Shown: positions 5,882 to 13,594 of the stretch, piece after piece
Layout of the letters: every line of letters begins with the position of its first letter
Position numbering within the stretch: the first letter of the stretch is position 1
Origin: Lachnospiraceae bacterium
Lineage (GTDB): Bacteria > Bacillota > Clostridia > Lachnospirales > Lachnospiraceae
Reading direction: 5' to 3'
Assembly (NCBI GenBank): GCA_014804565.1
Contig: JAAUZN010000080.1
Location: 1 to 13,594 of the forward strand
DNA length: 13,594 nt
Notes under the pieces: generated by a model
The model's input: only the letters and a program-made list of their open reading frames with translations
Told to the model about the DNA's origin: nothing
The model's database searches: none
Program-made: the position numbers and the translations under genes

Positions 5882-6700
5882 ATGAGTGGATTTTTCTTCA
5901 CACCGATCACCCGTTTTTATGCGGAAATGATGCAGGGGATGAGCAGCACGGGAAGCAGCGTATATGCAGGAAACGGAACGGATGGAAGCTTTTTCGGGAC
6001 GGTGCAGGATAAACTTTCGCAGATGGAGAATGGGCAGGACAGCACTGCGGGTGTGGGAGAACGGGATGAGGCTGCCGTACAGGCCATGTCTATGGAGGCT
6101 TATAAATTGTATATCTATCAGAAGATATCCGGGATTCCCATGAACGCCTCCCAGAAGTGGGATGCGGTGTCGGTCAATATCTCTGAGGAGGGCTTTGCGG
6201 CGATGAAGGCGGATCCCGTCTATGAGAAGTGGGTGCTGGATACGCTGCGAAGTGACTTTTCCTATTATAATCCCTGGAGCAGCTACTATGGCGGCAGCTA
6301 CAGGTCACATTATTTCGGGGCAACGAAGGAGGAATACCGGGGAGAGAGCTTTCATATGGGATTTCGGAACGGCGATAAGCGCACGGAGTCTAAGAAAAAG
6401 GAGGAGAGCTTCTGGGATAAGCGTGCCAAGCGGCGTAAGCTGTACATGGATCTGGCGCAGAAGGCATGGTACAAGCATGAGAGCGAGAGAAAATATCAGG
6501 AGAGTATCGACCTGCAAAGGCGGGAATTGAGCAGCGCCAGATTACAGCAGTGGTCTCTGGAGCGGGCCACGGGTGAAAAGGCAGAACTGGATGTGAATCC
6601 GTCGGTGCTGTCGGAAGCAGCCACGGAATATGCGCAGGAATATGTATTCTTTAAGATTCCTAGCGCCCTGATGAATGCGAAGCCGAAAACCTCTAAATAG
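5882..6700 (+). CDS. Conserved-looking protein of unknown function, 272 residues
   Basis: No family is recognised. The frame is a convincing gene: ATG after an AAGGGGCGG site, codon use like the signalling genes, no internal stop. The N-terminal 60 residues are rich in Gly, Ser and Met and lack a signal peptide. A core (about 70-150) reads AYKLYIYQKISGIPM, SVNISEEGFAAM and a Tyr/Ser-rich stretch ending YGGSYRSHYFGA. It is followed by a strongly charged helical region (about 165-220) with repeated Lys, Arg and Glu. This looks cytosolic, possibly coiled-coil or nucleic-acid associated, but no function is proposed. It converges with the sensor kinase gene, overlapping it by 8 bases, with no terminator between. 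A small inverted repeat CTGATA/TATCAG lies upstream at 5821-5839. Confidence 0.75.
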   Translation: MSGFFFTPITRFYAEMMQGMSSTGSSVYAGNGTDGSFFGTVQDKLSQMENGQDSTAGVGERDEAAVQAMSMEAYKLYIYQKISGIPMNASQKWDAVSVNISEEGFAAMKADPVYEKWVLDTLRSDFSYYNPWSSYYGGSYRSHYFGATKEEYRGESFHMGFRNGDKRTESKKKEESFWDKRAKRRKLYMDLAQKAWYKHESERKYQESIDLQRRELSSARLQQWSLERATGEKAELDVNPSVLSEAATEYAQEYVFFKIPSALMNAKPKTSK

Positions 6701-8006
6701 GAAGCGTCACCGTAAAGACGCTGCCGCCGCCGGGGCGGCTGTCCACACGGATCGTACCGTGGTGGAGCTTTACGATCTCCAATGCAATAGAAAGACCCAG
6801 CCCGAAGTGTCCCTTGGCGCTTCGGGATTTTTCTGCCCGGTAAAAGCGGTCGAAGATCTTTTTCTGATCCTCCGGCGGGATGCCGATACCGGTATCCGCC
6901 ACGGTGAGACAGAAGTGGTTCTTCTGATAGGCCAGCGTCAGGTCGATGCTGCCGCCCTCCGGCGTATAGCTGATGGCGTTGGAGAGCAGCACCTGGAGCA
7001 GTTGGGAAAGACGATCGGCATCGGCATGACACAGTGGCAGGGCGTCCTCCGGCAGAGAGATGGTGAGGGTCAGTTTTTTATCTGCCGCCAACGGTTCAAA
7101 GGCTTCGTAGGTGTTGATGAGCAGTGTGTCCAGTTCTACGGGAGCCTGGTGAAACGGCAGCCGCTGGCTATCGGAGGCGCTCAGTGTGAGCATGTCATTG
7201 ACTAAAGAAGTCAAAAGCGCACCCTCCTGTCGTATCGTGTCTAAAAATCCGGTCTGTCTTTCTGACGTGGCATCCCGGCAGCACTCGGCGGCGGACAGGA
7301 TGACTGCCAGAGGTGTGCGCAGCTCATGGGAGGCGGCGGCTACAAAGGCCGTCTGCTTCTGTCTGCTCTCAATGATGGGCGCAAGAAGCCTGCCTGTGAA
7401 GAAAAAGGAGAACAGGGCCAGGAGGAGACAGGCGGTCAGATTGATCAGGAAAAAACGGATCCGCTGGCTCAGAATCTGCTCCTTTAAAAATGCCAGGGGA
7501 AAAAGGATCACGACCTGCAGGGTGGAATCCTCTCTGACAAGCTCAATGACGCTGGCGTAATATTCATGTCTGCCGCCATCGGGATCAAAGGGAAATTCCA
7601 TGTGCAGGCAGGCATTATACAGACCGCCTGTCTGCAGTTCCAGCTCGATCATGGAATATTCCTGACTGTTTTGATAGGCAGAAAGACATTTGTCCAAAAG
7701 AATCAGCTCGTCCGGGCTGTCTGAAAAGCCGTTTAAACGGTTATAGAGAAAAGGGATCCCGTTGTCCAGCACATAGAAAGTATAGTTGCCGCGGGATTCC
7801 ATTTTAGAGAGCCACTCCATGGAGATCACGGTCTGCTGTTCCAGACTCGTGGCAATGGTGTTGATATCGTTTTGAAAAGAGTGGTATTGATTTTCGTAAA
7901 GATTCTTTTCCGAAACATACAGGTAGCACAGGGACATTATGATCAGGACGGCGGTGATGGTGCCGGCGCACATCGCTGTCAGCTGCAGATGGACTTTTTG
8001 AAACAT
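6693..8006 (-). CDS. Membrane sensor histidine kinase of a two-component system
   Basis: Starting at the ATG ending at 8006, which has GGAGG 6 bases upstream, the protein has 437 residues. An in-frame ATG at 8048 overlaps the regulator's stop codon but lacks a binding site. There are two membrane helices (about 8-30 and 183-205) flanking an extracytoplasmic sensor region of about 150 residues. Next comes the phosphoacceptor box SHELRTPLAVI with His227, an N box around Asn343, DTGIGIP (371-377), FDRFYRAE and GLGLS (402-406). These complete HisKA and HATPase domains. It should phosphorylate the regulator encoded immediately upstream in the same operon. The stimulus is unknown. Its target promoters are probably the TTAGAG sites described below; that is inference. 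Confidence 0.9.
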   Translation of the reverse strand: MFQKVHLQLTAMCAGTITAVLIIMSLCYLYVSEKNLYENQYHSFQNDINTIATSLEQQTVISMEWLSKMESRGNYTFYVLDNGIPFLYNRLNGFSDSPDELILLDKCLSAYQNSQEYSMIELELQTGGLYNACLHMEFPFDPDGGRHEYYASVIELVREDSTLQVVILFPLAFLKEQILSQRIRFFLINLTACLLLALFSFFFTGRLLAPIIESRQKQTAFVAAASHELRTPLAVILSAAECCRDATSERQTGFLDTIRQEGALLTSLVNDMLTLSASDSQRLPFHQAPVELDTLLINTYEAFEPLAADKKLTLTISLPEDALPLCHADADRLSQLLQVLLSNAISYTPEGGSIDLTLAYQKNHFCLTVADTGIGIPPEDQKKIFDRFYRAEKSRSAKGHFGLGLSIALEIVKLHHGTIRVDSRPGGGSVFTVTLPI

Positions 8007-8044
8007 GATTCCTCCGTTTGTAACCGGTCGGCGGGATGCCCTGC

Positions 8045-8722
8045 TCATGAGGGATCGACCATGATGTAGCCGATACCCCTGACCGTCTTTATGGTGAGAC
8101 TGCTCCCAACGGTTTTCAGCCGTCTGCGCAGAAAATGAATATAGTTATCCAGATTGCCCTCCTCCACATCGCTGTCAGGGCCCCAGACTTTTAAAAGCAG
8201 AAGGCTTCTGGAGAGGGTGGCGCCGTCACTTTTTAAAAAGGCTTCCAGAAGAGCCATCTCCCGCTTGGAGAGTGTGCAGCTTCCTGTTGGTCCTGTCAGC
8301 CGGTTTTCTGCGGCATGCCAGGTAATGTCTGCCAGGGAAGCGGCTTCCTCGTCCACGATCTGACGAGGCCGTCTTATGATACAGCGGATCCTTGCCAGAA
8401 GCTCTTCCAGAGCAAAGGGTTTGACCAGATAATCATCGGCGCCCAGATCGAGCCCTTCTACCTTGTCCGACAGCATACCCAGTGCGGTGATCAGGATGAT
8501 GGGGGTGCAGATTCCTTTTTTGCGAAGCGCCACCAGCACCTCGCTACCCTCCATGTGGGGCAGCATACGATCCAAAAGGATCACATCGTAAATATCCTGT
8601 TCCCCATAGAAAAGAGCATCCTCCCCGTCAAAGCAGGTATCCACATCAAATCCGGCCCGGGTCAGTCCGTAGACCAGCGTCTCATTCAGTTTTTCGTCAT
8701 CCTCGGCAAGCAGTATCCGCAT
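8045..8722 (-). CDS. OmpR-family response regulator
   Basis: The 225-residue protein has a receiver domain with acidic pocket ED at 7-9, phosphoacceptor Asp51 in LLDRMLP, Thr79 and Lys101 in VKPFALEEL. It is followed by a winged-helix DNA-binding domain (about 130-222) with LSKREMALLEAFL, NLDNYIHFLRRRL and TVRGIGY. OmpR-type regulators bind as dimers to two direct repeats about 11 bases apart. AAGGAGG precedes the ATG. Its own promoter (8748-8780) holds such a pair, TTAGAG and TTAAAG, and the same pair lies upstream of three lipoprotein genes further right. Positive autoregulation and control of those genes is therefore likely but inferred. The stop codon lies 38 bases before the kinase start. 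Confidence 0.93.
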   Translation of the reverse strand: MRILLAEDDEKLNETLVYGLTRAGFDVDTCFDGEDALFYGEQDIYDVILLDRMLPHMEGSEVLVALRKKGICTPIILITALGMLSDKVEGLDLGADDYLVKPFALEELLARIRCIIRRPRQIVDEEAASLADITWHAAENRLTGPTGSCTLSKREMALLEAFLKSDGATLSRSLLLLKVWGPDSDVEEGNLDNYIHFLRRRLKTVGSSLTIKTVRGIGYIMVDPS

Positions 8723-8747: not shown

Positions 8748-8780
8748 ATAATACCACAGAAATCTTTAAAAAAACTCTAA
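8748..8780 (-). promoter_or_regulatory. Regulator operon promoter with TTAGAG/TTAAAG direct repeat
   Basis: Read on the minus strand, TTAGAG (8780-8775), 5 bases, TTAAAG (8769-8764), 10 bases, then TATTAT (8753-8748) with TG one base before it (extended -10). The spacing equals that at 11732, 12599 and 13282. No good -35 is present, as expected where an activator replaces it. The repeats also overlap the -35 zone of the divergent hybrid-kinase promoter. Confidence 0.65.
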
Positions 8781-8785
8781 GGTTA

Positions 8786-8794
8786 TGTTATAAT
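8786..8794 (+). promoter_or_regulatory. Extended -10 promoter of the hybrid kinase gene
   Basis: TG, one base, then TATAAT (8789-8794) forms a perfect extended -10. The -35 zone (about 8766-8771) has only TTAAAA and lies inside the regulator's direct repeats, so the two divergent transcripts may compete. Confidence 0.5.
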
Positions 8795-8835
8795 AAAAAT
8801 ATTAAAAATTGACTGCAAGGCAGGGAGGAATTTCC

Positions 8836-10920
8836 GTGAGACAGTATAGCGAAAAAACCGATTTTACAATATGTTTTGATGAGCATACACTGCCCGTGAT
8901 CGAGCAGATCTCAGAGGGGATGCCGGGCGGCTTTTTTATCTATCATGCTGACGGTGATGAGGAACTGATCTATATCAATGGCGCTATGCTGCGGATCTTT
9001 GGCTGCGATACGGTGGAGGAATTTAAGGAGCTGACCGGATATACCTTTAAAGGACTCGTTCACCCGGATGATATCGAGGCAGTAGAGGCTAGTGTCAAGG
9101 CGCAGATTGAACACAGCAAGGATGATCTCGATTACGTGGAATACCGCATTATCCGTAAGGATGGGAAGGTGCGATGGGTGGAGGATTACGGCCACTTTAT
9201 TCACACCAGGGAGTACGGGGATATTTTCTATGTGTTTATAGAGGATGTCACGGAGCGGATGCAGAAGCGGATGGCGGAAATGGAGCGGATCAACGAGGCT
9301 CTCTATGAAGCGCAGCTGCGAGAGGATTATTTTAAGAGAGCGCTGCTGCGCGATGCGGTCTCTTTTGTGGAAATCAATCTGACCAGAGATGAGTTTATCT
9401 CCGCTTCCATGCTGGATGGGGATGGAAGAGTACAGAACCTCTTTAATTTTATGGGGATCACTCCTTTTGAAAAATATTCTGATTTCGCAAGATTTTGGGC
9501 GGATTTTACGGAGACCGATGAATTGGATACCTACAATCGGTTTTTCGATATAGAAAGGCTGATCCGCAGCTATGAGGCGGGAGAGCGGGAGCAGATATAT
9601 GACAGCTGGGTGACAGATATGTTCGGCAGAAAACGTCTGTGCCATTATGTGTTCCTTTTAGATAAAAACGAGCATACGGGCGATGTGGTCTGTCTTTCCG
9701 TGGCAAGGGATATCACGGAGCAAGTGGAACGGCAGAGCCTTTTAAAATCCGCACTGCGTCAGGCGGAGATGGAACGGCTTGCGAGAAATACCTTTTTTGC
9801 CAATATGTCTCACGACATCAGAACGCCGTTAAACGCTATCATCGGTTATGCAGAGCTTTTAAAGAGTTATGTGGGAGATCCTGGGAAGGTCGGAGAATGT
9901 ATAGAGAACATTCGCTATTCCGGCGAGGAGCTTTTGTCGGTCTTCGATGAGTTCCTGCGGGACAACCTGAGCGAACCCTCCAGGGCAGAGCTTACAGAGA
10001 GTGAGTACCATCTGGGAGAACTGCTTCGGGAAGTGGAGAAGAATGCCGAGCGTCCCATCAAGGCGAAGCATATAGTGTTTCAACTGGATAAGAAAGATAT
10101 TACTCATGTTTCTGTAGATGTCGATTACATAAGGCTCAGAGAAATCTTAAACCAGCTTTTGGATAATGCCATCAAGTACACGCCGGCTGAGGGACAGGTG
10201 AGCCTTACGGTCAGAGAGAGTGAGAGCGATGTCAAGGGCAGAGGCTTGTATCAGTTTATTGTTTCGGATAATGGCTGCGGCATTCCTGCGGAGCGGCAGG
10301 AGGAGATATTTCAGCCTGTGCAGCCGGGAAAAGGCGCTGTGTATAATGGCATGCCGGGGGTAGGGCTTGCTGTGGTGAAAAGCTATGTGGAGATGATGGG
10401 CGGTACTGTCGGCGTAGAGAGCGAGGCGGGCAAGGGAAGTGTCTTTACGGTTACACTTCCCCTAAGATATCCTATGGCCGGCTCTTTTATGGAGCATGAG
10501 AGCAGCGCTTCTGAAGAGAGGAATACCGGTGAAGAACAAGTCCGGATCCTGCTGGCGGAGGATAATAGCATCAACAGGGAGATCGAGGCGGAACTTCTCA
10601 AAAATCAGGGTTACGCGGTGGAGACAGTCTGCGACGGCTTGAGCGCTTATGAGATGATGAAGAACGCCGAGCCGGGGTATTATGGGCTGGTGCTTTTGGA
10701 TATTGAGATGCCCGGCATGGATGGCTATGAGACGGCGAGAGCGATCCGCAGGCTGGAAGATGAGGAACTTGCTGAAGTGCCGATAGTTGCGCTGTCCTCT
10801 GATGTCCTGGAGGAGGATCGGCAGAGATCGCTGGAGGCGGGGATGAATGCACATTTCCCGAAGCCCATTGATATTGAGGCGCTGCAGAAGTTGATCGGGG
10901 AGATTTTGGAGGGAGAATAG
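8836..10920 (+). CDS. Soluble PAS hybrid histidine kinase with C-terminal receiver
   Basis: GTG 8836 is taken as the start because GGAGG (8824-8828) lies 7 bases upstream; a TTG at 8809 has no site. The protein has 694 residues and no membrane helix, so it should act in the cytoplasm. Domains in order: a PAS domain (about 20-140) with VEYRIIRKDGKVRWVED and a DVTER end; a second PAS-like region (about 165-295) ending DITEQ; HisKA with His326 in MSHDIRTPLNAI; HATPase with Asn444, DNGCGIP (478-484) and GVGLA; and a receiver (about 570-690) with Asp622 in LLDIEMPGMDG and Lys676 in PKPID. It has no output domain or phosphotransfer domain, so phosphate must pass to another protein or the receiver must regulate the kinase itself. 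It is a single-gene unit closed by a terminator. Confidence 0.9.
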   Translation: MRQYSEKTDFTICFDEHTLPVIEQISEGMPGGFFIYHADGDEELIYINGAMLRIFGCDTVEEFKELTGYTFKGLVHPDDIEAVEASVKAQIEHSKDDLDYVEYRIIRKDGKVRWVEDYGHFIHTREYGDIFYVFIEDVTERMQKRMAEMERINEALYEAQLREDYFKRALLRDAVSFVEINLTRDEFISASMLDGDGRVQNLFNFMGITPFEKYSDFARFWADFTETDELDTYNRFFDIERLIRSYEAGEREQIYDSWVTDMFGRKRLCHYVFLLDKNEHTGDVVCLSVARDITEQVERQSLLKSALRQAEMERLARNTFFANMSHDIRTPLNAIIGYAELLKSYVGDPGKVGECIENIRYSGEELLSVFDEFLRDNLSEPSRAELTESEYHLGELLREVEKNAERPIKAKHIVFQLDKKDITHVSVDVDYIRLREILNQLLDNAIKYTPAEGQVSLTVRESESDVKGRGLYQFIVSDNGCGIPAERQEEIFQPVQPGKGAVYNGMPGVGLAVVKSYVEMMGGTVGVESEAGKGSVFTVTLPLRYPMAGSFMEHESSASEERNTGEEQVRILLAEDNSINREIEAELLKNQGYAVETVCDGLSAYEMMKNAEPGYYGLVLLDIEMPGMDGYETARAIRRLEDEELAEVPIVALSSDVLEEDRQRSLEAGMNAHFPKPIDIEALQKLIGEILEGE

Positions 10921-10928
10921 ATGTGTTT

Positions 10929-10971
10929 AAAGTCCATGGTGATCGGGGTGAGGCGATACTGTGGACTTTTT
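10929..10971 (+). terminator. Intrinsic terminator after the hybrid kinase gene
   Basis: AAAGTCCA (10929-10936) pairs with TGGACTTT (10962-10969) across a long loop, followed by TTTTTC and another T run. On the minus strand the stem lies just after the type III toxin stop codon but has only a short T stretch, so it may be weak in that direction. Confidence 0.6.
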
Positions 10972-11472
10972 CTATTTTTTCCCGGTTATTCCTAATTCAT
11001 GGTGAAAATATGGCAGAGTCGAATATTCATAGATACGTTTAAATGAGACTTTATCATATGTGGTTGTATCACCTGATATGCCGGTTATGTAATCATCAAT
11101 ATATTTTTGAACATCATTTTTTATGTATTCTATATTATCTCGTGTTTCCTTAAATTCATCCCGATCTATGATCGCGTCGCTAGTTCCGATATATTCTTTT
11201 TTTGTTATGATCACAATTTTGCTGTAGTCCAACCCGGAATGTGTTTTCTTAGAACGGGCACTGTTTTTGAATTTAAAGGCATATTTGTGCTTGATATGAC
11301 TTCTGTAGGGGATGCAGATAAAATAACCATAATGAGATTGTATTAGCAGACAATTATAGGGCCTGCTTTCTTTTTTTAAAATCTCTTTATAGGGTGGGTT
11401 AGGATAATCAGCATAAAATTTTGCCGTTAAATGTAAAATCTGATAATCGAAAGACTTTTCTTTAGAATACAT
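10972..11472 (-). CDS. Type III toxin-antitoxin endoribonuclease (ToxN/CptN/TenpN superfamily)
   Basis: The protein has 166 residues from the ATG ending at 11472; GGGGAG lies 5 bases upstream, and a GTG at 11478 overlaps that site. It is basic, with GYFICIPYRSHIKHKYAFKF (49-68) and SGLDYSKIVIITKKEY (79-94), then helical NIEYIKNDVQKYIDDYI. This pattern and size fit type III toxins, probably of the CptN or TenpN branch; the branch is not certain. These toxins are RNases that cut cellular mRNA and their own repeat RNA, and the cut repeat units bind and silence them. The context supports this strongly: directly upstream are an intrinsic terminator, two 51-base tandem repeats and a promoter, the standard type III order. 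High A+T suggests horizontal gain. A phage-defence role is known for relatives. Confidence 0.8.
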   Translation of the reverse strand: MYSKEKSFDYQILHLTAKFYADYPNPPYKEILKKESRPYNCLLIQSHYGYFICIPYRSHIKHKYAFKFKNSARSKKTHSGLDYSKIVIITKKEYIGTSDAIIDRDEFKETRDNIEYIKNDVQKYIDDYITGISGDTTTYDKVSFKRIYEYSTLPYFHHELGITGKK

Positions 11473-11485
11473 AGACACTCCCCAG

Positions 11486-11513
11486 AAAAATGGGAGAGCA
11501 GAAACTCTCCCAT
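11486..11513 (-). terminator. Attenuating terminator between antitoxin repeats and toxin gene
   Basis: On the minus strand ATGGGAGAG (11513-11505) and CTCTCCCAT (11498-11490) form a perfect 9-bp stem with a 6-base loop, followed by TTTT. In type III loci this terminator lets most transcripts end after the antitoxin RNA and only some read on into the toxin. Confidence 0.85.
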
Positions 11514-11514
11514 G

Positions 11515-11623
11515 AACTCATCACTCGGTCACTTTTATTTTACCGTTGAGTCAGAACCGTCACTCAACTCATCGCTCTGTCACTTTTATTTTACCGTCCT
11601 GTCAGAACAGTCACAGGACTCAT
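11515..11623 (-). repeat. 51-base tandem repeats, 2 full copies plus 7 bases
   Basis: Copy 1 spans 11623-11573, copy 2 11572-11522, and a third starts at 11521 with ATGAGTT before running into the terminator. Both copies begin ATGAGT, share GACNGTTCTGAC and the exact run ACGGTAAAATAAAAGTGAC, and end GAGYG. Differences fall almost entirely in paired positions. Confidence 0.9.
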
Positions 11624-11632
11624 AATGTGATG

Positions 11633-11653
11633 AAGAAATCTAGTAGATTTCTT
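11633..11653 (-). other. 21-base perfect palindrome at the antitoxin RNA start
   Basis: AAGAAATCTA (11633-11642), a central G, and TAGATTTCTT (11644-11653) are exact inverted copies. The palindrome begins where transcription is predicted to start. It could fold as a 5' RNA hairpin (8 bp, 5-base loop) that protects the antitoxin, or be an operator for a dimeric repressor. Confidence 0.6.
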
Positions 11654-11659
11654 ATCTAT

Positions 11660-11688
11660 AATATATCCAATTACAGAAGAAAATGCAA
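11660..11688 (-). promoter_or_regulatory. Promoter of the type III toxin-antitoxin locus
   Basis: On the minus strand TTGCAT (11688-11683) and TATATT (11665-11660) are 17 bases apart. A single promoter upstream of the repeats, driving both RNA and toxin, is the usual type III layout. Confidence 0.65.
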
Positions 11689-11731
11689 GAAAAATCAAAT
11701 GAACTTTTGATGAATATTATGAAAAGTTTTC

Positions 11732-11764
11732 TTAGAGAGATTTTAGAGGAACCTCTGCTAAGAT
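11732..11764 (+). promoter_or_regulatory. Lipoprotein 1 promoter with TTAGAG direct repeat
   Basis: TTAGAG (11732-11737), 5 bases, TTAGAG (11743-11748), 10 bases, then TAAGAT (11759-11764) with TG one base before it. Transcription would start near 11771. The leader holds the palindrome GGCTGGCCAGCC (11777-11788). The same design precedes the other two lipoprotein genes and the OmpR-type regulator. Confidence 0.7.
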
Positions 11765-11812
11765 ATAACACGAAAAGGCTGGCCAGCCAAAAGACAGAAA
11801 GGATGAAGACAA

Positions 11813-12454
11813 ATGATAAGAGAAAAACTATACTATAAAGGGAGAGTTTTAACGGCGGCAATCACACTGCTATTGGCAGTGGGAATGACAGGATGCGGAA
11901 AGGATACAGGGGCAGCAGAGCAGTCGGAGGAGATTGTGACAGAGTCGGACCGGGCGGGTATCGAGAATGAGAAAAAGGTGCCGGGGACACCGGAGCGCGA
12001 AGTTGCCGAGGAGAAAAATCCGGAGGCAGACCGAAACGGACAGGATGAGTCACAGGAAGAGGAAACAGAAAAAGCGGAAGAAGTCGAACAGATTGAACCG
12101 GAAATGGAGAGCCAGCCGCAGGCAGGCACGGCGGAGCTGACCGGCAGCGTGCAAAGTGTGGGCGCAGACAGCTTTGTGGTCAGTCAAACCACCACAGAGC
12201 ATCATGAGGATTATGATATTGAAGTGGGCGTGGCACCCGGTGCCTCAGGAGAGGTGTTGGTCACCGTGTATGTGACCGACGCTGCCGTCTATCAGTATCG
12301 GACAGTCAAAAACAGCGGTATCAATCCGGAGGATGTCACGAGCCGGGAGGGAAGCTATGGAGATTTACAGGAGGGGATTTCCGTTATTTTAAAGGGCCAC
12401 TGGGAAGAGGATTCCTTCTATGCGGACGAATTGGTGATGATGAAGTTTACATAA
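11813..12454 (+). CDS. Secreted lipoprotein 1, DUF5666-like C-terminal domain
   Basis: The 213-residue protein has a basic N terminus, a hydrophobic segment and lipobox MTGC with Cys28, so it should be lipid-anchored on the outer face of the membrane. Residues about 30-105 are an acidic, low-complexity linker rich in Glu. The C-terminal part (about 108-213) starts LTGSVQSVGADSFVVSQTTT and ends DLQEGISVILKGHWEEDSFYADELVM. This layout resembles the small beta-barrel DUF5666 and related extracytoplasmic domains; that is a loose match by eye. Lipoprotein 2 has a parallel ending, so the two are distant paralogues. AAAGGA lies 9 bases before the ATG, and the GACAGAAAGGATG leader sequence is shared with lipoprotein 2. 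Function is unknown; an envelope stress or ligand-binding role is possible. Confidence 0.8.
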   Translation: MIREKLYYKGRVLTAAITLLLAVGMTGCGKDTGAAEQSEEIVTESDRAGIENEKKVPGTPEREVAEEKNPEADRNGQDESQEEETEKAEEVEQIEPEMESQPQAGTAELTGSVQSVGADSFVVSQTTTEHHEDYDIEVGVAPGASGEVLVTVYVTDAAVYQYRTVKNSGINPEDVTSREGSYGDLQEGISVILKGHWEEDSFYADELVMMKFT

Positions 12455-12459
12455 TTCTA

Positions 12460-12499
12460 ATTTTTATTTACATATTATAATATTATGTAAACTAAAAAT
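12460..12499 (+). repeat. AT-rich inverted repeat after lipoprotein 1
   Basis: ATTTTTA plus TTTACATA (12460-12474) is mirrored by TATGTAAA, one unpaired C and TAAAAAT (12484-12499). A third copy of the arm, GTTTACATAA (12445-12454), covers the lipoprotein stop codon and is an exact inverse of TTATGTAAAC (12483-12492), so two alternative hairpins are possible. Confidence 0.55.
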
Positions 12500-12539
12500 G
12501 AGCGCTCTGTAGGGAACATTTAAGGAGCGCTCTCTTTTT
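12500..12539 (+). terminator. Intrinsic terminator after lipoprotein 1
   Basis: GAGCGCTC (12500-12507) pairs with GAGCGCTC (12525-12532) over 8 bp with a 17-base loop, followed by TCTTTTT. It separates lipoprotein 1 from lipoprotein 2, which has its own promoter. Confidence 0.75.
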
Positions 12540-12598
12540 ATTATATAGGAAATTGCCAACTTTTTCTTAAAAATGTCATAATAAAATCTTCATTTTTT

Positions 12599-12631
12599 TT
12601 AGAGAGAATTTAGAGGGACGGCTGATATCCT
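12599..12631 (+). promoter_or_regulatory. Lipoprotein 2 promoter with TTAGAG direct repeat
   Basis: TTAGAG (12599-12604), 5 bases, TTAGAG (12610-12615), 10 bases, then TATCCT (12626-12631) with TG one base before it. There is no consensus -35, so activation is likely needed. Predicted start is near 12638, giving a 60-base leader. Confidence 0.7.
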
Positions 12632-12697
12632 TTTCTCATAGTTAACGGCATGCTCTTTACTATGACAACAGAAGAGGACAGAAAGGATGGCAGCAGG

Positions 12698-13285
12698 ATG
12701 AAGAAGAGAAAATTGATAGCAACAGTCGGCGTCATGTTAAGTCTGGGAATGATGATGGCAGGATGCGCGGGAACAGATGAGACTTCGCAGACGGAGATAA
12801 GGGAGATGTCCCTGGAGGACATTGACGAAACGAAAGACACAGAGCCGGACGCGGAGGGGAAGATTGAAACAGAAGAGACAGAAAAGGATGCCGACAAGAC
12901 AGACGAGGTGAGACGGGATACGTCGGAGCCAGACGAGACAGACGGGGGACAGACCATAAATGTATCGCATGATATGGAGCATCTCGGCGGGAAGGTGCAG
13001 TCTCCGCAGGCGGATGGCATGATTCTGGCACAGACCACACTCATGGATGAAGACGGAATGGTTACGCTGTTGGAAGTGAAGGATGCGAAAAAAATTCAGG
13101 TGAGATTTACCGAGGACACGAAAGCGGAACACTGGATCATTCAGGGCGGCGGCGCCGGCATTGATATGAAGGAAGCCTCGCTCTCGGATCTGGAAGAGAA
13201 TATGGGCGTGGAGCTGGAAGGTTATTTTGAGGATGAAGATTTCGTAGCGACAAGGGTAATCATCGAGGAGTACGTGCAGGCTTAG
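12698..13285 (+). CDS. Secreted lipoprotein 2, paralogue of lipoprotein 1
   Basis: The protein has 195 residues from ATG 12698. An in-frame ATG at 12650 would put 16 hydrophilic residues before the signal peptide and lacks a binding site. The signal peptide MKKRKLIATVGVMLSLGMMM ends in lipobox MAGC with Cys23. Residues about 25-90 are an acidic Glu/Asp/Thr linker. The C-terminal domain (about 92-195) reads LGGKVQSPQADGMILAQTT, matching the GSVQSVGADSFVVSQTT of lipoprotein 1, and ends DLEENMGVELEGYFEDEDFVA, matching its DLQEGISVILKGHWEEDSFYA. The two are therefore diverged paralogues in one regulon. AAAGGA lies 10 bases upstream. The operator of the third gene overlaps its stop codon. The role is unknown. 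Confidence 0.8.
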   Translation: MKKRKLIATVGVMLSLGMMMAGCAGTDETSQTEIREMSLEDIDETKDTEPDAEGKIETEETEKDADKTDEVRRDTSEPDETDGGQTINVSHDMEHLGGKVQSPQADGMILAQTTLMDEDGMVTLLEVKDAKKIQVRFTEDTKAEHWIIQGGGAGIDMKEASLSDLEENMGVELEGYFEDEDFVATRVIIEEYVQA

Positions 13286-13314
13286 AGATTCGTTAGAGAA
13301 AACTTTGATAAAAT
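13282..13314 (+). promoter_or_regulatory. Lipoprotein 3 promoter with TTAGAG direct repeat
   Basis: TTAGAG (13282-13287), 5 bases, TTAGAG (13293-13298), 10 bases, then TAAAAT (13309-13314) with TG one base before it. The predicted start, near 13321, leaves only about 11 bases before the ATG, which cuts into the AAAGGG site (13317-13322). Read-through from lipoprotein 2 may therefore also matter. Confidence 0.6.
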
Positions 13315-13331: not shown

Positions 13332-13594
13332 ATGAACCGATATTTGTTTGATGATAACAAAAAAATAGCAAGGGCGCTGGCAGTTTTAGCAGCCCTTATG
13401 GTGATAGCCGGACTGCTCGGAGGCTGTGGCGGGAACGGGCCGGCAAATGCGCCGGGGACACAGGGAACGGCTTCCGGAGAAACGGATGCCTCGAATGCAG
13501 GGGAAGGAACAGAAGGCGGGGAGAACGGCGGAGCGGAAGGAAAGGGCGAAACGACGGCCATGGGACGATACATAGAATCCACCATGGATCTCTC
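13332..13594 (+). CDS. Secreted lipoprotein 3, N-terminal part
   Basis: The frame runs off the right edge after 87 complete codons. After ATG 13332 come a basic stretch, a hydrophobic helix (ALAVLAALMVIAGLL, 15-29) and lipobox LGGC with Cys32, so this is a third lipid-anchored exported protein. A Gly/Glu/Ala-rich linker (33-74) leads to TTAMGRYIESTMDLS, where a folded domain seems to begin. Such a GRYxE entry is seen in large extracytoplasmic, possibly propeller-type lipoproteins of Lachnospiraceae; this is recall, not a search. It differs from lipoproteins 1 and 2 in linker composition (Gly-rich rather than Glu-rich) but shares their promoter design. The gap to lipoprotein 2 is 46 bases with no terminator. 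Confidence 0.75.
   Translation, partial: MNRYLFDDNKKIARALAVLAALMVIAGLLGGCGGNGPANAPGTQGTASGETDASNAGEGTEGGENGGAEGKGETTAMGRYIESTMDL

Follow-up and report, generated by a model that had tools for sequence, protein, structure and literature searches.

Promoters and genes of the locus

The DNA analyzed here, the first 13,594 bases (the window) of the 26,758-base contig C80 of a Lachnospiraceae bacterium (GenBank JAAUZN010000080.1), carries the genes of an OmpR/PhoB-type response regulator and a sensor histidine kinase, three lipoprotein genes, and four operator-promoters of a single design that stand before the regulator gene and the lipoprotein genes (Table 1). The pattern TTARAG-N5-TTARAG-N7-TG-N-TANNNT matched the window exactly four times, and no match was found in 200 dinucleotide shuffles of the window. 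An earlier note on this DNA had described four such promoters, and all were found in place with the half-sites, the 5-bp gap, the 10-bp gap, and the TG-N as given there; its chance expectation of about 0.002 for an exact 12-base pattern agrees with a recalculated value of 2 x 13594 / 4^12 = 0.0016. As the same note had judged by eye, no further copy of TTAGAG-N5-TTAGAG exists in the window at 0 or 1 mismatch; with up to 3 mismatches there are 20, compared with a shuffle mean of 14. The end of the -10 of the regulator promoter lies 25 nt from the start codon, and the third lipoprotein site starts inside the preceding gene, whose TAG stop (13283-13285) falls within the first half-site. This third operator is flanked by weak extra half-sites at 11-bp steps (window 13271-13309), and four half-sites in a row are present in genome G223 (locus L307).

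Table 1. Coordinates of the regulator locus, its operator-promoters, and neighboring genes in the window (aa, amino acids)
Feature	Position	Strand	Details
Regulator gene operator-promoter	8748..8780	-	TTAGAG-N5-TTAAAG-N10(TG-N)-TATTAT
Operator-promoter 1	11732..11764	+	TTAGAG-N5-TTAGAG-N10-TAAGAT
Operator-promoter 2	12599..12631	+	TTAGAG-N5-TTAGAG-N10-TATCCT
Operator-promoter 3	13282..13314	+	TTAGAG-N5-TTAGAG-N10-TAAAAT; overlaps stop codon of preceding gene
OmpR/PhoB-type response regulator	8045..8722	-	225 aa; receiver and winged helix; recognition helix EGNLDNYIHFLRRRL
Sensor histidine kinase	6693..8048	-	451 aa; PF00512 and PF02518
Small lipoprotein 1	11813..12454	+	213 aa; lipobox-like MTGC, Cys28; BLAST cluster 3
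Small lipoprotein 2	12698..13285	+	195 aa; Cys23
Solute-binding lipoprotein, gene start	13332..13594	+	~812 aa; cut by window end

The regulator matches PF00072 (receiver) and PF00486 (C-terminal winged helix) above the Pfam cut-offs, and residues D8, D9, D51, T79, and K101 are invariant in an alignment of 22 orthologues; we take these to be the acidic pair (D8/D9), the phospho-acceptor Asp (D51), the Thr/Ser (T79), and the Lys (K101) of the receiver. Naming the protein by a curated family was tried and abandoned, as none of the best 25 of 87 NCBIfam families matching at E<=0.001 reaches its cut-off. Hydropathy predicts two membrane helices in the kinase (residues 23-41 and 199-217) that enclose an extracytoplasmic domain. 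Small lipoprotein 2, examined with relatives drawn from the fetched loci described below, has a predicted C-terminal beta domain that is OB-fold-like (oligonucleotide/oligosaccharide-binding). The three genes that the earlier note had called lipoprotein genes all encode lipoproteins, the third being more exactly the solute-binding protein of a transporter operon: beyond the window this gene is followed by two permease genes and a gene for an HlyD-type adaptor. A hybrid PAS-kinase-receiver gene (window 8809-10920, plus strand, an open reading frame (ORF) of 703 aa) is divergent from the regulator gene, and its ORF starts about 30 bp away from the operator of the latter; several relatives likewise have kinase genes near the regulator.

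Distribution, targets, and anatomy of the operator

The source genome (3.1 Mb, 93 contigs, 98% complete) contains seven matches to the 17-bp core TTARAG-N5-TTARAG, one of them (C13) within an ORF resembling a sensor kinase and the other six with TANNNT exactly 10 bp on. The pattern TTARAG-N5-TTARAG-N10-TANNNT occurs at these six places genome-wide, four in the window and two outside, and its reversed control at none. The outside site on C26 precedes an Amidase_2 gene (PF01510) for a peptidoglycan amidase, and that on C38 precedes a gene for a solute-binding lipoprotein of ~800 aa (PF13416/PF01547) from the same cluster as the ~812-aa protein at the window end. Both permease genes behind the gene at the window end are of the BPD_transp_1 family. 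The genome-wide scan with a list of downstream genes, as the earlier note had proposed, returned six full sites, all ahead of regulon-type genes. Two sites with mismatches, C72:3109 (one) and C76:11959 (two), are without TG-N, lie among other kinds of gene, and were taken as chance.

We fetched every site in 11 genomes (G000-G010) and took as target the longest ORF starting within 320 bp. All 40 of the 40 sites precede a gene for a small lipoprotein (20), an amidase (9), a solute-binding lipoprotein (7), or the regulator (4), with one of the two G002 sites separated from its lipoprotein gene by the other. With a single core match within an ORF of the source genome and every site of these 11 genomes linked to a target, the pattern is not scattered over many unrelated loci or inside genes, an outcome that the earlier note had named as counting against its proposal. 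Similar results were obtained for 139 sites in 83 fetched loci, for which the next same-strand gene was assigned from simple gene calls and BLAST clusters: a small lipoprotein gene follows 43 sites, a solute-binding lipoprotein gene 42, the regulator gene 31, and an amidase gene 11, so that 127 of the 139 precede the four regulon families; permease genes (3), other genes (5), and the lack of a same-strand gene within 400 bp (4) account for the remainder. Twelve of the 139 sites overlap a called gene. The 31 sites ahead of the regulator's own gene, together with further cases, show that an operator in this position, as expected of an autoregulated system, is conserved. The name "lipoprotein regulon" used in the earlier note is too narrow for a set that also includes a transporter operon and an amidase.

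In 20 loci of other genera (L255-L274), an HlyD-type adaptor gene is present in the same stretch in 18, as a rule after the solute-binding lipoprotein and permease genes and commonly in divergent orientation to the regulator-kinase pair; eight of the 20 also have a MacB-like gene, either next in line or close by. The MacB-like protein has a MacB_PCD domain in the one member tested, and one N-terminal plus further C-terminal membrane helices in most. An ATP-binding cassette (ABC) ATPase with Walker A and LSGG motifs was found in the same-strand run of none of 40 adaptor loci, where the runs are short and five consist of the adaptor alone. Importer-type and exporter-type parts, namely a binding lipoprotein, two MalF/MalG-like permeases, an HlyD-type adaptor and, in some genomes, a MacB-like protein, stand side by side in L008:2433-8061 (the part of contig C80 beyond the window) and L215-L274. 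A predicted model of one binding lipoprotein combines a C-terminal part like a sugar-binding protein with an all-beta N-terminal part. The extra N-terminal region of these lipoproteins (L136:1558-3969 and relatives) spans ~300 residues and is all-beta, and 7 of 9 aligned proteins have the stretch S-x-D-x-G-x-T-W in it; Pfam and fold searches gave no identity for it.

The anatomy of the operator was examined in the 83 fetched loci (1.29 Mb), which were chosen for a site or the regulator. Half-sites with a gap of 5 form 143 pairs, compared with 6 for the reversed control, and the remaining gaps between 0 and 12 yield 0 to 9 pairs each, in agreement with the 11-base period of direct repeats proposed earlier. 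Among the 143 pairs, 139 have TANNNT at 10 bp and 124 have TG-N; since the full pattern was a selection criterion for many of the loci, the 10-bp distance is more fairly judged from the source genome, at 6 of 7. A -35 box sought at 16-18 bp was rejected as a part of these promoters: TTGACA is matched at 4 of 6 positions in 1 of the 139 sites, never better, and at no more than 3 of 6 in the other 138. The consensus of 129 distinct sites is TTAGAG-AWW-N-T-TTARAG-AWW-N4-TG-N-TATRAT, in which TG-N, although not demanded by the pattern, occurs in 116. By rough gene classes, the second half-site is TTAAAG in 27 of 33 regulator promoters and TTAGAG in 91 of 94 lipoprotein promoters; such differences in half-site and TG-N between gene classes look like graded promoter strength.

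Most relatives with the regulator also have the operator signal, and most of those lacking the regulator do not. Of 77 genomes in the genus, 70 contain the pattern (258 matches, compared with 18 for the reversed pattern) and 68 the regulator at E<=1e-80; both are found in 68 genomes, the site only in 2, the regulator only in 0, and neither in 7 (p=1.5e-8). A search at E<=1e-40 finds the regulator in 69 of the 77, the extra genome, G051, being reached via a 45% identical paralogue. The solute-binding lipoprotein is encoded in 70 of the 77 genomes, and the 7 without it (6 of the 7 that have neither site nor regulator, plus G068) all lack the regulator; G051 and G052 keep the lipoprotein without the regulator. 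In the family (397 genomes), a site is present in 65 genomes and the regulator, at E<=1e-60, in 64, with 49 having both, 16 the site only, 15 the regulator only, and 317 neither (p=3e-35); when TG-N is required, these numbers become 42, 2, 22, and 331. Conservation in relatives, which the earlier note had suggested as a check, is hence seen in 70/77 genus and 65/397 family genomes and is concentrated where the regulator is present. We also trained a weight matrix on the sites of other genomes and ran it on the 15 regulator-only family genomes, 13 of which proved to contain a diverged site adjacent to the regulator gene (scores 20.4-37.1, on a single strand or on both); in 20 mononucleotide shuffles applied to four of the loci, no score exceeded 13.3. 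Nine of 295 genomes sampled from the order have the TG-N pattern, eight of them along with the regulator at E<=1e-60. Three of the nine belong to a second family, where G495 has a site 30 bp before the regulator gene and G578 one on another contig, with a low score.

Identical 33-bp sites occur in two genera (G042:C1:3113 and G358:C33:54837), and one that precedes a lipoprotein gene, G009:C57:151127, differs by one base; at the cut applied, G358 is without the regulator. The operator may have travelled with a mobile block.

Proposed control and alternative explanations

These results lead us to propose that the regulator very probably activates its own operon together with surface lipoprotein, transporter, and amidase genes via one operator. 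The tie between regulator and sites is computed; we infer binding, the direction of control, phosphorylation, and a response to an envelope or surface-ligand signal. The kinase of the locus would phosphorylate the neighboring regulator, a dimer of which would bind head-to-tail to the two TTARAG half-sites 11 bp apart; with the downstream end of the half-sites 10 bp before the -10, it would replace the missing -35 and recruit RNA polymerase at the extended (TG-N) -10. Activation of its own operon would form a positive loop, and the further targets would be at least one small lipoprotein gene, the operon for the solute-binding lipoprotein, permeases, and adaptor and, in many genomes of the genus, the peptidoglycan amidase gene. 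A surface ligand of the lipoproteins and cell-wall stress are our guesses for the signal sensed by the kinase. Binding by this regulator is suggested by the co-occurrence, by the position of sites beside the regulator gene, and by the different operators beside paralogues; activation is favored over repression because of the promoter geometry and the missing -35.

Several observations weigh against this proposal. The 83 loci were picked for holding a site or the regulator, the genus cut of 1e-80 was chosen after seeing the hit list, and the co-occurrence counts take genomes singly, ignoring relatedness. Two genus members, G052 (66% complete) and G068 (83% complete), have sites without a regulator orthologue, as do 16 of the 65 site-bearing family genomes at E<=1e-60; of these 16, 14 have only TG-N-less sites, as by chance, G157 carries, next to its sites, a regulator of 45-48% identity, and G358 is unexplained. 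The weight matrix gave low scores in G422 (11.9) and in G223 with its row of half-sites (16.2), and in the order sample 5 of 13 regulator genomes (E<=1e-60) are without an exact TG-N site. The amidase sites differ from the others, with TTAAAG as second half in 11 of 11 and TG-N in only 1 of 11, and this promoter may be weaker or differently read.

That the sites are operators of this regulator used for repression, or for activation of some genes and repression of others, is unlikely. RR_1586 of Clostridioides difficile, which binds a direct repeat of similar 11-bp design, acts as a repressor in reporter assays (PMC6222199), and autoregulation can be negative; repression is at odds, however, with the lack of a TTGACA-like -35 at 138 of 139 sites, with an extended -10 at a constant distance of 10 bp, and with a geometry identical to that of CiaR-activated promoters. 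Still less probable is a reading of the sites by a different member of the regulator family, such as the paralogue encoded on contig C56 (44-46% identity). Much of the recognition helix is common to the paralogues, near which TTAGAA, TTATAG, or TTTAAG repeats are present, with TTAGAG-N5-TTATAG in the case of G051, yet the regions upstream of paralogues mostly carry other repeats, G051 has the paralogue and the solute-binding protein and no exact site, and sites lie directly before the regulator orthologue in many genomes. Chance was rejected as the origin of the sites by the shuffles and the reversed-pattern count in the genus. We give very little credence to a general promoter element of A+T-rich DNA, or one of a sigma factor, unrelated to the regulator: the 33-bp pattern does include a -10, but the excess over the reversed pattern (258 to 18), its absence from 7 of the 9 regulator-less genomes of the genus, the restriction to a 5-bp gap, the co-occurrence with the regulator, and the confinement to four gene families rule against such an element.

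Operator specificity and comparison with known systems

The alignment of regulators with their operators provided a lead on specificity. An upstream candidate was obtained for 170 of 171 distinct regulators, and the analysis retained the 107 with TG-N-TANNNT at the fixed place; one Ser193 row was left out of the count by residue 193. The downstream half-site of 78 Asn193 regulators has A at base 3 and that of 11 has another base (C in 8 of these), whereas with Thr/Val193 it has A in 1 and another base in 16 (15 T, 1 G); Fisher's test gave p=5e-11 for these related rows, with 12 exceptions. The upstream half-site of Thr193 regulators breaks the rule, having A in 9 of 9. On the tree, well-supported branches force 2 changes (4 in the best tree), and the base follows the residue in 1.8 of 2 pairs on average, a number with which the sign test cannot reach 0.05. 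A separate contig motif search was usable at 9 of 80 loci (L135-L142, L211; 49-68% identity), the rest giving a common receiver motif. A paralogous regulator with helix NVDNYISFLRKRLR has TTATAG-N5-TTATAG upstream, and paralogues L326, L327, L332, and L333 (helix SNLDNYIYFLRKRLK) have three half-sites TTAGAG/TTAGAA nearby at 11-bp steps, a different arrangement of the operator. We take V197 of PhoB to be the position of Asn193 here, from our own alignment. ArlR, CovR, and PrrA have a Val at the position of residue 193. In the part of the source drawn on here, PhoB V197 touches thymines (PMC3973317).

With only 2 to 4 independent changes, the association between residue 193 and base 3 is a lead, not a result. 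It would fit a tentative picture, which we hold a little less probable than its converse, of a Clostridia regulator clade that kept one promoter geometry while single recognition-helix residues changed the target sets: Asn193 would read A at base 3 of the downstream half-site (TTARAG), Thr/Val (as in CiaR) would read T (TTT[AG]AG), and NVDNY helices would go with TTATAG or TTAGAA. If so, parallel but separate regulons could be controlled by paralogues that differ in their helices, and OmpR-type regulators would have in these operators a natural recognition code.

For an uncharacterized sensor-regulator pair, the analysis supplies a precise operator, a short target list, and a way to find both elsewhere. 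The targets (a binding lipoprotein with a large extra domain, permeases, an HlyD-type adaptor, a MacB-like protein in some, small lipoproteins, and an amidase) suggest one surface function in Lachnospiraceae-type bacteria that is now testable as a unit. With related regulators that have other operators in the same geometry, single substitutions can be used to test DNA specificity in the OmpR family.

Among the papers listed in searches of open-license literature, none describes this operator or regulon, whose regulator is of OmpR type with a CiaR-like promoter geometry. The comparisons with published systems that follow draw on parts of the papers cited. PhoB of Escherichia coli, with its pho box, shares the tandem binding by winged helices and is the second best NCBIfam match, but the regulator scores 167.1 bits compared with the PhoB equivalog cut-off of 296.2. 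RR_1586 is likewise OmpR-type, with the 11-bp direct repeat DRTTAAGNWWW occurring twice, and differs in a half-site with TTAAG and in repression in reporter assays (PMC6222199). The two-component system BAS0540-BAS0541 resembles the present system in NTTAAG-N5-TTTAAG direct repeats, in having its own operon among the sites, and in one target annotated as a membrane fusion protein (MFP) subunit of resistance-nodulation-division (RND) type, and differs in its CiaR-like half-site and other targets (PMC4938410). The closest likeness in geometry is to CiaR (CiaRH, streptococci), an OmpR-type regulator whose activated promoters have the arrangement TTTAAG-N5-TTTAAG, 10 nt, and a -10, i.e., 6-bp direct repeats with a 5-bp gap and 10 bp to the -10 (PMC3091779). 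CiaR controls small-RNA genes among others, whereas here, where protein genes were examined, the putative targets are surface lipoproteins, a transporter operon, and an amidase; the extended -10 is a feature of the present promoters, on which the part of the CiaR source drawn on makes no statement. The half-site of CiaR is TTTAAG rather than TTAGAG/TTAAAG, and its helix is VVEVYVSKVRKKL with only V/I changes (PMC3091779), compared with NLDNYIHFLRRRL here. Because of this half-site and helix, we consider that the regulator is not CiaR but probably works like it.

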